Part shown: in pieces, positions 4,570 through 59,980 of the stretch
How positions within the stretch are numbered: the first letter of the stretch is position 1
How the letters are laid out: each line of letters opens with the position of its first letter
Notes under the pieces: model-generated
The model's database searches: none
What the model saw: only the letters and a program-made list of their open reading frames with translations
Told to the model about the DNA's origin: nothing
Origin: Geodermatophilus amargosae
GTDB lineage: Bacteria > Actinomycetota > Actinomycetes > Mycobacteriales > Geodermatophilaceae
DNA: 64,000 nucleotides
Reading direction: 5' to 3'
NCBI RefSeq assembly: GCF_900116515.1
Contig: NZ_FPBA01000022.1
Coordinates: forward strand, 1 to 64,000
Program-made: the position numbers and the translations under genes

Positions 4570-5519
4570 GTCCAACATCTCGCGGCGGCCCAACGGCACC
4601 TGGCGTGCGCGGGTACCGGGACCTCGCGGGCCCGATGCGCGGACGTGCTGCGGACGCACGTGCTGCCTCGCTGGGGCGACGTACCCCTCGTACGTATCGC
4701 CCACAGCGACGTCCAGGCCTGGCCGGCCGAGCTGAGCGACCGCGGCCTGGCCGGCGCCTCGGTGCGCAAGACGCAGGGGGTGCTCTCCGGTGTCCTCGGA
4801 CTCGCGGTGCGCGACCGGCGACTCGTCCTCGACCCCGCACTCGGCGTCGCGCTGCCTGCCCTCGAGCAGGGGTGCCGGCGCTACCTGACGGCCGGGCGGC
4901 TCGGGGCCCTCGCAGAGGCGGCCGGTCCCGGCAGAGTCGCCGTCCTCGTCCTCGGCTACTGCGGCCTGCGGCGGTCGGAGCTCGCCGCGCTGCGCGTGCG
5001 GCACGTCGACCTGCTCCGCCGCCGGGTGCTCATCGAGGAGGCGGTGACCGAGGTCGACGGCAAGCACCTCGTCTGGGGCACGCCGGAGAACAACAGCCGG
5101 CGCACCGTGCGCTCCCCCGCTCCCTGGTCGACGCCGTCCTCCGCAACCGCAACGCCCGGGCCGCGTGGTTCGGCGAGGCGGCCCGGGAGATCAGGGTCCC
5201 GGTGCTGACGCCCCACGAGCTGCGGCACACCGCGGCGTCCCTGGCCATCAGCGCCGGGGCCAACGTGAAGGCCGTGCAGCGGATGCTCGAGCACGCGTCG
5301 GCGGCCATGACGCTCGACCGCTACGCCGACCCCTTCGACGACGACCTGGACGAGGTGGCCGACCGGCTCGACGCCCTGCGGTACCGCTCGTGCGGACCGC
5401 GTGCGGACTCGTTGCGGACCGGAGCCTCTCCGGAGCCTTGCCGAGACGTTCCATCGAACGGGAACGACCAGGTCAGAACGGGGTCGTGCGAGTGGAGACG
5501 AGGGGAATCGAACCCCTAA
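4570..5519 (+). pseudogene. Decayed phage-type tyrosine integrase
   Basis: Three reading frames must be joined to rebuild a tyrosine recombinase. Frame 2 from GTG 4570 gives the usual N-terminal SNISRRPNGTWRARV. Frame 1 from about 4640 gives the core-binding and start of the catalytic domain, with the first catalytic arginine in GYCGLRRSELAAL. From about 5110 frame 3 gives HELRHTAAS (HxxR), then the last histidine in LEHASAAMTLDRYAD with the tyrosine nucleophile. Compared with intact relatives roughly 50 residues are also missing after the N-terminal patch. At least two frameshifts plus a deletion make it non-functional. It reads toward the 3' end of tRNA-Ala, the usual place for such integrases. 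The end given is the frame-3 stop, which runs into the tRNA; the true protein end was probably near 5395. Confidence 0.85.
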
Positions 5520-5565
5520 CCCCCGCCTTGCAAAGGCGGTGCTCTGCCAATTGAGCTACGTCCCC
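5493..5565 (-). tRNA. tRNA-Ala (anticodon TGC)
   Basis: A full cloverleaf reads on the minus strand. The acceptor stem GGGGACG pairs with CGTCTCC, with one G-T pair. The D-arm contains AGCTCAATTGGCAGAGC, the anticodon loop is CTTTGCAAG with TGC at 5530-5532, and the T-arm is AGGGGTTCGATTCCCCT. The discriminator is A at 5493 and CCA is not encoded. Its 3' end abuts the integrase remnant and is the likely former attachment site. Confidence 0.96.
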
Positions 5566-5823: not shown

Positions 5824-5897
5824 TGGGCCTGGGAGGACTTGAACCTCCGGCCTCATCCTTATCAGGGATGCGCTCTAACCGCCTGAGCTACAGGCCC
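5824..5897 (-). tRNA. tRNA-Ile (anticodon GAT)
   Basis: The minus strand gives the acceptor stem GGGCCTG pairing with CAGGCCC, a D-arm with AGCTCAGGCGGTTAGAGC, an anticodon loop CTGATAAG with GAT, and a T-arm with GGAGGTTCAAGTCCTCC. The discriminator is A at 5824 and CCA is not encoded. The position between the DUF3566 gene and the DLW-39 gene matches related genomes. Confidence 0.97.
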
Positions 5898-57400: not shown

Positions 57401-59980
57401 GTGGCGGTGGCCGACGACTTCAGCCGGCCCCAGGCGGCGGCGCCGGCGTACGACCGGCAGCCCCCGCAGGACGTCGCGGCGGAGCAGTCTGTGCTCGGCG
57501 GCATGCTGCTGAGCAAGGACGCGGTCGCCGACGTCGTCGAGGTGCTGCACGGCGCCGACTTCTACCGGCCGGCGCACCAGGTGATCTTCGACTGCATCCT
57601 CGACCTGTACGGCCGGGGTGAGCCGGCCGACGCGATCACCGTCGCCGCGGAGCTCAACCGCACCGACCAGCTGTCGAAGATGGGCGGCGCAGTTTACCTG
57701 CACACCCTGATCGCCTCGACACCGACGGCGGCCAACGCCGGCTACTACGCCGCCATCGTGGCCGAGCAGGCGGTGCTGCGGCGGCTGGTCGAGGCCGGCA
57801 CCCGCGTGGTCCAGCTGGGCTACGGCGCGGCCGGCGGCAAGGGCGACGTCGACGACATCGTCGACCGCGCCCAGCAGGAGATCTACGACGTCACCGAGAA
57901 GCGCATGAGCGAGGACTACTCGCGCCTCGAGGACGTCCTGCAGCCGACGATGGACGAGCTCGACGCCATCGCCTCCCGGGGCGGTACCGCCCGCGGCGTG
58001 CCCACCGGGATCCGTGACCTCGACGAGCTGACCAACGGCCTGCAGGCCGGTCAGATGGTCGTCATCGCCGCCCGACCCGGTGTGGGCAAGGCCCTGGCGC
58101 TGGACACCCCGATCGCCACGCCCGCGGGCTGGACGACGATGGGTGAGATCCGGGTCGGTGACCGTGTCCTGGGCGTCGACGGACGCCCCACGACGGTCGT
58201 CGCCGCCACCGACGTGATGACCGACCGGCCCTGCTACGAGGTGCACTTCTCGGACGGCACGGTGATCGTGGCCGACGCGCAGCACCAGTGGGTCACCACC
58301 GACCGTGCCGCCCGCCGGCTCGGCGAGCGGGGTGAGGCCCGGGTCCGGACCACCGAGGAGCTGGCCCGCACGGTCCGCTGCGCCACGGCCGACCAGCGGC
58401 TCAACCACGCCGTGGCCAACGCAGCTCCGTTGGACCTGCCGGCCGCCGACCTCCCCGTCCCGCCGTACGCGCTGGGTGTGTGGCTGGGTGACGGGACGTC
58501 GGCCGCAGCCCAGTACACGAGCGCCGACCCCGAGATCGCGGCCTACATCGAGGGCGAGGGCCTGGTCGTCCTCCCGACGGGCGTTGACCGGCGCTACTCG
58601 CTGCGGCTGCCTGCCCGTCCCGCGCCGGCCGAGCGGCCGTGCCCGATGTGCGGCGAGCCGTTCGTCCCGCGGACCTCGCAGGTCCAGACGTGCGGCAAGA
58701 CGTGCGGCGGCCGGCTGCGCGCCGGCGGCGGCGTGGGCCTGCAGGCCTCCTGCCCCGACTGCAGCGGCCCGTCGAGCGGCATGGCGCAGTGCCAGGCGTG
58801 CCGGGACGAACACGGCACCGTGAAGGGCCTCCTGCGCACCCTGGGCGTGCTCGACGACAAGCACATCCCGACGTCGTACCTCCGCGCGTCGGTGGCGCAG
58901 CGGCGGGCGCTGCTGGCCGGCCTGCTCGACACCGACGGCACCGTCACGCCGAGCGGGGCCGTCCAGTTCGCCGTCACCAACCGCCGGCTGGCCGAGGACG
59001 CCCGCGAGCTGATCGCCGGCCTGGGTCACCGGGTGAAGCTGAGCACCGAACGGGTGCGCGGCCGGTCCGAGGCGTCGTCCACCTGCTACACGCTGACGTT
59101 CAGCACCGACGACGAGGTCTTCCGCCTCGAGCGCAAGAAGCTGGTGCACAAGGAGCGGGGTGCCCGTACGTACACGGCCCGCGGCGTCCGATTCGTCACC
59201 GACGTGCGCCCGGTGGCCGGCGTCCCCGTGCGCTGCATCCAGGTCGACGCCGCCGACTCGCTGTTCCTCGCCGGCCGGAGCTTCGTCCCCACGCACAACT
59301 CCACGCTGGGGCTCGACATCGCGCGGTCGGCCACGGTGAAGCACAACATGCCGGCGGTCATCTTCTCGCTCGAGATGAGCAAGCACGAGATCACGATGCG
59401 TCTGCTCTCGGCCGAGGCGAAGGTGCCGCTGCACCACATGCGCGCCGGCACGCTGTCGGACGAGGACTGGTCGAAGCTGGCCCGCCGGATGGGCGAGGTC
59501 GCCGACGCGCCGCTCTACATCGACGACTCACCGAACATGACGATGATGGAGATCCGGGCCAAGGCGCGCCGGCTCAAGCAGCGTAACGACCTCAAGCTCG
59601 TGGTCATCGACTACCTCCAGCTGATGACCTCGGGCAAGCGCGTCGAGAGCCGCCAGCAGGAGGTCTCGGAGTTCTCCCGTGCGCTCAAGCTGCTGGCCAA
59701 GGAGCTCGAGGTCCCGGTCATCGCGATGTCGCAGCTCAACCGAGGATCCGAGCAGCGTCAGGACAAGAAGCCGATGCTGTCCGACCTCCGTGAGTCCGGC
59801 TCGATCGAGCAGGACGCCGACATGGTCATGATGATCCACCGCGAGGACATGTACGAGAAGGAGTCCCCGCGGGCCGGCGAGGCCGACATCATGCTGGTCA
59901 AGCACCGCAACGGCCCGACGGCCAACGTCACCGTCGCCTTCCAGGGCCACTACAGCCGCTTCGTCGACATGGCGAACTAG
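57401..59980 (+). CDS. dnaB: Replicative DNA helicase DnaB, interrupted by an intein
   Basis: An 859-residue precursor from GTG 57401 (GGGAGGT upstream), starting VAVADDFSRPQ. Removing the 403-residue intein leaves a 456-residue helicase, the normal size. The N-terminal domain has QPPQDVAAEQSVLGGMLLS. The P-loop ARPGVGK is cut after Lys230 and resumes with STLGLDIARS, so no ATPase can form before splicing. The remainder has VIFSLEMSK, VVIDYLQLMTS and QLNRGSEQR. DnaB unwinds DNA at the fork and would be loaded by DciA. Mycobacterial DnaB proteins also carry P-loop inteins. Confidence 0.98.
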   Translation: MAVADDFSRPQAAAPAYDRQPPQDVAAEQSVLGGMLLSKDAVADVVEVLHGADFYRPAHQVIFDCILDLYGRGEPADAITVAAELNRTDQLSKMGGAVYLHTLIASTPTAANAGYYAAIVAEQAVLRRLVEAGTRVVQLGYGAAGGKGDVDDIVDRAQQEIYDVTEKRMSEDYSRLEDVLQPTMDELDAIASRGGTARGVPTGIRDLDELTNGLQAGQMVVIAARPGVGKALALDTPIATPAGWTTMGEIRVGDRVLGVDGRPTTVVAATDVMTDRPCYEVHFSDGTVIVADAQHQWVTTDRAARRLGERGEARVRTTEELARTVRCATADQRLNHAVANAAPLDLPAADLPVPPYALGVWLGDGTSAAAQYTSADPEIAAYIEGEGLVVLPTGVDRRYSLRLPARPAPAERPCPMCGEPFVPRTSQVQTCGKTCGGRLRAGGGVGLQASCPDCSGPSSGMAQCQACRDEHGTVKGLLRTLGVLDDKHIPTSYLRASVAQRRALLAGLLDTDGTVTPSGAVQFAVTNRRLAEDARELIAGLGHRVKLSTERVRGRSEASSTCYTLTFSTDDEVFRLERKKLVHKERGARTYTARGVRFVTDVRPVAGVPVRCIQVDAADSLFLAGRSFVPTHNSTLGLDIARSATVKHNMPAVIFSLEMSKHEITMRLLSAEAKVPLHHMRAGTLSDEDWSKLARRMGEVADAPLYIDDSPNMTMMEIRAKARRLKQRNDLKLVVIDYLQLMTSGKRVESRQQEVSEFSRALKLLAKELEVPVIAMSQLNRGSEQRQDKKPMLSDLRESGSIEQDADMVMMIHREDMYEKESPRAGEADIMLVKHRNGPTANVTVAFQGHYSRFVDMAN
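58091..59299 (+). mobile_element. DnaB P-loop intein, class 3, with LAGLIDADG endonuclease
   Basis: The 403-residue insert runs from Ala1 (GCC 58091) to Asn403 (AAC 59297-59299), followed by Ser+1. It lacks the N-terminal Cys or Ser of ordinary inteins. Instead it has the class 3 set: Trp67 in DAQHQWVTTDR (with His65), Cys382 in PVRCIQVDAADS, and Thr401 in VPTHN. The homing endonuclease has two LAGLIDADG motifs, LGVWLGDGT at 128-136 and LLAGLLDTDG at 274-283, with acidic residues intact. Between them lies a cysteine-rich insert from Cys184 with CPMC, CGKTC, CPDC and CQAC. The element should be able to splice and perhaps still home. Confidence 0.92.

Follow-up and report, generated by a model that had tools for sequence, protein, structure and literature searches.

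A full-length, probably mobile class 3 intein in the P-loop of the replicative helicase DnaB of Geodermatophilus amargosae

Class 3 inteins are marked by a Trp-Cys-Thr (WCT) triplet in blocks B, F and G (PMC7664689, PMC5050341). The closest described relatives of the intein reported here are DnaBi1 of Mycobacterium smegmatis (6bs8, 6own; PMC6195587, PMC7360933) and DnaB1 of Mycobacterium chimaera (6rix, 6riy; PMC7664689). In these papers, peroxide drives the catalytic Cys118 of DnaBi1 into a disulfide with Cys48, and splicing was abolished by every Cys48 replacement that was tried (PMC6195587); for the M. chimaera intein, H2O2 is an inhibitor of N-cleavage (PMC7664689); and zinc inhibits DnaBi1, with Cys118, the Val119 backbone and the Tyr128 hydroxyl as ligands (PMC7360933). 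DnaBi1 is discussed as an endonuclease-free intein possibly kept for serving its host (PMC6195587), and mycobacterial inteins of the DnaB-b type are described as lacking endonucleases (PMC5050341). The window analyzed here, the whole 64,000-nucleotide stretch at positions 1 to 64,000 (forward strand) of contig NZ_FPBA01000022.1 of Geodermatophilus amargosae (assembly GCF_900116515.1), very probably encodes a full-length class 3 intein at DnaB site b which is likely still mobile.

The DnaB site b intein and its splicing residues

The dnaB reading frame (57401-59980) is uninterrupted across the insert, which reads ALALDT...PTHN and is flanked by ARPGVGK and STLGLD (insertion point ARPGVGK^STLG), so that the P-loop is divided between Lys and Ser. 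The junctions were fixed by eight dnaB genes of the same genus that read ARPGVGKSTLGLD without interruption, the exact empty site being present in 8/26 Geodermatophilus genomes. The features are as follows (positions in the window).

57401..59980, + strand: dnaB, replicative helicase, 859 codons including the insert, plus stop (start codon assumed to be GTG); TIGR00665 E 1.7e-161
57401..58090, + strand: N-extein, ending in ARPGVGK, the Walker A motif through Lys
58091..59299, + strand: predicted class 3 intein, DnaB site b, 403 aa
58091..58315, + strand: N-terminal splicing half, residues 1-75 (A1, C48, D62, H65, W67)
58232..58234, + strand: Cys48, counterpart of the disulfide partner in M. 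smegmatis DnaBi1
58289..58291, + strand: Trp67 of the WCT triplet
58469..58495, + strand: LAGLIDADG motif 1, ALGVWLGDG, acidic residue D134
58640..58801, + strand: eight-Cys zinc-ribbon-like insert (C184, C187, C201, C205, C221, C224, C234, C237)
58910..58939, + strand: LAGLIDADG motif 2, LLAGLLDTDG, acidic residue D282; PF14528 E 1.8e-7
59234..59236, + strand: Cys382, block F nucleophile of the WCT triplet
59264..59266, + strand: Phe392, at the position of the DnaBi1 zinc ligand Tyr128
59291..59299, + strand: Thr401, His402 and Asn403, block G
59300..59980, + strand: C-extein, opening with Ser+1 and Thr of Walker A, stop included
59300..59302, + strand: Ser+1 codon TCC
59801..59803, + strand: Ser codon TCG at LRESG^S, a second intein site, vacant here and presumed to be site a

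A phmmer search of the PDB matched the insert to the M. chimaera DnaB intein (6rix, E 7.5e-38; 6riy, 4.3e-37) and the M. smegmatis intein (6bs8/6own, 5.5e-36), in alignments that begin at residue 1 and end at the last residue (for 6riy, the last but one). W67, C382 and T401 align with the triplet of the M. chimaera and M. smegmatis chains. For comparison within the family Geodermatophilaceae, 112 genomes were searched, 106 with a match; dnaB was fetched from 85 and parsed in 83 (not in G066 and G069), and the family counts omit G098 (occupied, cut by a contig end) and other unfetched genomes. The P-loop site is occupied in 42 of the parsed genes and empty in 41. Nine splicing residues (A1, C48, D62, H65, W67, C382, T401, H402 and N403) are invariant in all 42 copies, the first residue thus being Ala and neither Cys nor Ser throughout. 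Because of these PDB matches (E 7.5e-38 to 5.5e-36) and the 42 copies with invariant splicing residues, a chance origin of the insert's features is excluded.

A preliminary description of this DNA had already placed the insert at 58091-59299, which proved exact, with empty alleles and the class 3 alignment in agreement. It had also named Ala as the first residue, Trp67, Cys382 and Thr401 as the triplet, and His402-Asn403 followed by Ser+1 as the C-terminal junction, all of which stand; its assignment to class 3 and its splitting of the P-loop between Lys and Ser agree with sequence, alignment and structure model alike. The comparisons it proposed, with known class 3 DnaB inteins and with intein-free DnaB of near relatives, are those given above. 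It passed over the LAGLIDADG motifs, the eight cysteines between them, Cys48 and the vacant second intein site.

A single dnaB match and a single intein of this type were found in the assembly. As just one dnaB was found, helicase activity is predicted, by what we consider a sound inference, to depend on splicing. By analogy with class 3 inteins of solved structure, His65 and Thr401 would set up Cys382 for attack on the Lys-Ala1 bond; the N-extein would pass to Ser+1, after which Asn403 would cyclize; and the P-loop Lys-Ser bond would be rebuilt, leaving a DnaB able to bind ATP.

The genes preceding dnaB are, to judge from their translations, presumably rpsF, ssb and rplI, and for this reason the gene looks like the chromosomal replicative helicase. 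Two tRNA genes on the - strand (window 5493-5565 and 5824-5897) are the sole Rfam matches at gathering level in the window.

The predicted homing endonuclease and its cysteine insert

The middle of the intein is predicted to be an intact LAGLIDADG homing endonuclease. Both motifs carry their acidic residues (D134 and D282), PF14528 scores above its cut-off in the second half, and the fold search gives the same picture. The eight cysteines between the motifs form two conserved zinc-ribbon-like sets of four, for which Pfam zinc families remain far below cut-off. As in other members of the LAGLIDADG family, the freed intein would cleave, at the P-loop codons, a dnaB that lacks it, and repair would copy the intein into the cut gene, sometimes with a few flanking bases.

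An AlphaFold2 model of the intein reached pLDDT 94.2 and pTM 0.92 with an alignment of 124 more diverse rows; one of 25 close relatives gave pLDDT 52.5. With this model Foldseek ranked PI-SceI first (1ef0, E 2.5e-17, TM 0.63), the class 3 mini-inteins following from rank 16 down (6riy, E 2.4e-10; 6bs8, 2.5e-10). The predicted overall fold resembles full-length PI-SceI, the splicing unit of which is of class 1. The fold and LAGLIDADG layout in common with PI-SceI would favor an intein of class 1 or class 2, but Ala1, the full WCT triplet and the solved class 3 inteins as best splicing-domain matches stand against it, and a non-splicing insert is opposed by the fact that the only dnaB found could hardly work unspliced. 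Both are extremely improbable.

Over 15 close, hand-chosen pairs, dN/dS averaged 0.15 in the endonuclease and 0.21 in the Cys insert, compared with 0.14 in both splicing parts and 0.06 in the extein. Some family members have indeed decayed: the Cys cluster and both motif Asp are gone from four of the 42 copies (G018, G020, G022 and G057, 293-303 aa; L017, L018, L019 and L076), and G086 lacks D134 and one of the cluster Cys. The three short Geodermatophilus copies have dN/dS 0.33-0.64 in what is left of their endonuclease. The intein of the window might likewise be a decaying relic, in which splicing persists and the endonuclease is already dead, but it retains D134, D282 and all eight Cys, and the endonuclease dN/dS is near that of the splicing part, which makes this quite unlikely. 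The three short copies cluster in the intein tree but not in the dnaB extein tree, which is weak in part.

A sample at the level of the order comprised 58 regions, chosen from matches and hence non-random, with 52 dnaB P-loop inteins; the rest include two inteins in a dcd-like gene, two in an FtsK-like ATPase and one partial. Among the 94 dnaB inteins (42 from the family, 52 from the order), 74 retain both endonuclease Asp. Both are present in 65/72 copies with seven or eight cluster Cys vs 9/22 with fewer (Fisher 6e-6), and for this reason the cluster is linked to an intact endonuclease. It is not strictly required, and an Asp is missing from seven inteins that retain the cluster. Longer class 3 inteins of 500-509 aa (L300-L306) also occur at the dnaB P-loop, five of the seven in family f16.

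In many of the viral contigs read, the intein lies at Walker A Lys^Ser/Thr. Of 591 relatives found, 80 loci were taken and 75 kept as rows, those of odd length or end being dropped; the set was fetched by patterns of this subgroup and includes near-copies, and is therefore biased. The highest identity to the window intein among the 40 phage matches listed was 45.7%. The eight-Cys cluster was absent from the 75 viral rows, which have at most four of the eight columns (17 rows with three). The phage inteins inspected (L156, L165, L168, L182 and others) have Cys and His arranged differently at the same place (C-x-RGH ... CxxC). A literature search, in which most subscription papers were outside the scope, turned up no DnaB-b intein described as combining an endonuclease with such a Cys cluster.

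Distribution, flank codons and homing

The P-loop intein is present in 18/26 Geodermatophilus genomes, 15 copies being of 403-415 aa and three of 299-303 aa. On a dnaB tree of 81 rows (the incomplete G021 and G094 excluded), presence and absence require at least 21 changes, 11 of them forced by strong branches; shuffled labels gave a mean of 27, and 3/500 shuffles were as low as the observed value. By 4-fold sites the dnaB closest to that of the window, among 80 others, is an empty one (G007). Intein gain and loss are repeated inside groups, with little sign of recent long-range transfer. This is how a mobile parasite is distributed, and a homing endonuclease can explain its patchiness without benefit to the host. 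One congener (G024; L011/L050) has an in-frame TAG in the dnaB N-extein (VDRA*QEIYD, with Gln in a congener), a sequencing error or real.

Related class 3 inteins occur elsewhere in the genus. Five (L032-L036; G003, G002, G009, G023 and G018) lie at RLEGK^SSLGR in what is presumably dCTP deaminase, with 48-53% identity in the best parts; the GK^S context is like that of the dnaB P-loop, and 16/24 bases of the consensus target DNA around the site match. Class 3-like inteins were also seen in three further host genes (L037, L038, L039, L040, L042, L043 and L044), which we take to encode a TraG/VirB4-like ATPase, an AAA_24-like protein and PhoH. With the PhoH intein as query, viral sequences yielded no relative.

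Of the 83 family dnaB genes, 22 hold a further intein, at LRESG^S, and the copies in the genus start with Cys; the site is vacant in the window. It was equated, by assumption, with site a of PMC6195587.

At the P-loop site the Ser+1 codon is TCN in 42/42 occupied and AGY in 23/41 empty family alleles. Over 81 rows the association of codon class with the intein has a Fisher p of 3e-9; among 26 conserved Ser columns, no other falls below p 0.05. The +1 codon of site a runs in the opposite direction, with AGY in 13/21 occupied vs 3/60 empty alleles (p 2e-7). Across 457 codon columns, differentiation peaked at the +1 codon for each intein (0.18 and 0.21; median 0.008) and faded within about five codons; for the P-loop intein, columns near site a were almost as differentiated (0.176 at +172, 0.174 at +163). 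None of 20,000 within-genus permutations gave as large a value for either intein (p 5e-5). Outside the Geodermatophilaceae, family f16 has AGC in 7/7 occupied vs AGY in 3/20 empty alleles (p 1.4e-4), family f8 has 0/19 vs 4/20 (p 0.11), and f15 is invariant. Among the occupied order-level alleles, 7/52 have AGC at +1. The simplest reading is that the intein brings its flank codon along when homing; it is also possible that AGY sites bar homing in the Geodermatophilaceae.

Four results count against the reading as a still mobile intein. The intein tree mostly follows genus, with nine label changes against a possible minimum of six. The 4-fold divergence of the intein equals or exceeds that of the extein in 765/780 pairs, so that recent transfer does not account for most copies; part of this difference may reflect a stronger codon bias of the extein. 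No clear co-conversion tract was seen in pairwise windows of 33 codons. Tree-paired tests of the +1 codon were weaker (median p 0.06 and 0.22). Recent transfer as a general claim was rejected on the 4-fold distances, the intein being closer than the extein in 15/780 pairs only.

Third-position A/T at the vacant P-loop site was 0.29 in nine alleles with the other intein only vs 0.095 in 32 with neither (p 9e-5, calculated on the excess over a gene background of about 0.02). At vacant site a the values were 0.22 in 28 alleles with the P-loop intein only vs 0.07 (p 8e-4). These p-values ignore relatedness, and the window's own vacant site a is not recoded. Comparison outside the family was planned first, and the rows with a P-loop intein were viewed before the control rows were collected. 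The A/T excess at site a with vs without the P-loop intein was 0.058 (19) vs 0.065 (20) in f8 (p 0.60), 0.064 (12) vs 0.040 (20) in f15 (p 0.68) and 0.306 (5) vs 0.158 (20) in f16 (p 0.025, weak); the recoding was thus unreplicated in two of the three families (f8 and f15). The two dnaB inteins might compete, each carrying its own silent flank codons, with alleles of the resident often holding a recoded, endonuclease-resistant rival site, so that immunity spreads with the resident. Silent codon change would then be the main resistance of the host gene, because the protein sequence of the P-loop cannot change. Such competition is given a low probability.

Redox and zinc response, and comparison with known systems

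The preliminary description had proposed that splicing could link replication to stress by oxidants or metals in a lineage that tolerates desiccation. As a domesticated switch, the intein would be kept by the host since stalled splicing halts replication under such stress. In its favor, the Cys48 and Cys382 found here are equivalent to the H2O2-sensitive pair of M. smegmatis (PMC6195587) and invariant in 42/42 family copies, and the reported inhibition of M. chimaera N-cleavage by H2O2 (PMC7664689) and of DnaBi1 by zinc (PMC7360933) points the same way. Cys48 would permit a reversible Cys48-Cys382 disulfide that pauses splicing under oxidants, and in this respect inhibition by redox state is possible on chemical grounds.

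The pair is not peculiar to a desiccation-tolerant lineage, however. Cys48 is present in 42/42 copies of the family, 52/52 other dnaB inteins, 4/4 other order-level copies and 69/75 viral rows; 74/94 of the dnaB inteins keep both endonuclease Asp, and 8/26 genomes of the genus do without the intein. Invariance in 94/94 dnaB inteins, with or without endonuclease, argues against a stress adaptation of the Geodermatophilus lineage. Conservation of Cys48 alone cannot tell redox control from a need in splicing, and it requires no regulatory role because replacement of Cys48 abolished M. smegmatis splicing (PMC6195587). A host-maintained switch is therefore considered unlikely, and the data are read as showing a Cys48-Cys382 pair built into the intein subgroup and not a host adaptation.

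The part of the proposal that concerns metal stress is weakened further. The zinc-ligand position holds Phe in 42/42 Geodermatophilaceae copies, Phe392 in the window, and Tyr in 52/52 dnaB inteins from other families of the order. Because the equivalent of Tyr128 is Phe392, zinc sensitivity of the Geodermatophilus intein is doubtful; the other two ligands of DnaBi1, the Cys sulfur and backbone atoms, are still available.

Cys48 is termed non-conserved in PMC6195587, where the alignment of the main figure comprises four mycobacterial DnaB and PhoH inteins. In the present set the PhoH (5/5) and AAA_24-like (1/1) inteins have Val at 48, and Cys instead of Asp at 62. A wider alignment has 144 rows, each with equivalents of Trp67 and Cys382. 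Of these, 101 carry Cys48 and 24 carry Cys62, no row has both, and 19 have neither; several of the 19 show Cys at 61, by eye. Universality of Cys48 in class 3 was rejected, the residue being absent from the six PhoH and AAA_24-like inteins and from 43/144 of the wider rows. Judged from these alignments, Cys48 is the mark of one class 3 lineage that includes endonuclease-bearing members. Since an intact endonuclease-bearing form has the same pair, the data suggest that the pair of Cys48 and the block F Cys preceded endonuclease loss, and that the supposed redox switch of the best-studied relatives came with the parasite and was not invented by the host. The question of adaptation versus inherited chemistry becomes directly testable, and, with empty, active-looking and decayed states side by side, a single genus lends itself to measurements of the homing cycle in a bacterial gene that is essential.

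Two inteins in one replicative helicase are likewise found in the Haloferacales (MCM-a and MCM-d), where the extein codon next to the intein can travel along with it (PMC10643990). For MCM-d a co-converted amino-acid change from Pro to Ser is described (PMC10643990), whereas Geodermatophilaceae dnaB switches silently between Ser codon boxes. Mycobacteriophage terminase inteins are likewise of class 3 with a LAGLIDADG endonuclease, but in a different host gene (PMC5050341). LAGLIDADG enzymes of the PI-SceI (VMA intein) and I-DmoI type have the overall model fold in common with the window intein (TM 0.63, 1ef0) and are matched by sequence in the region of motif 2, but the fold matches have just 16-18% identity. 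The M. smegmatis and M. chimaera DnaB inteins have the same insertion point as the window intein and are like it in Ala1, the WCT triplet, His65, Asp62, Cys48 and the PTHN or PTH end; they differ in that the solved chains are 139-146 aa without endonuclease, against 403 aa with endonuclease and eight-Cys insert, and in the Tyr128 of M. smegmatis at the place of Phe392. Class 3 DnaB-b inteins were already known, the solved ones being mini-inteins; the one described here is ordinary as an intein, and it alters the reading of the redox story.

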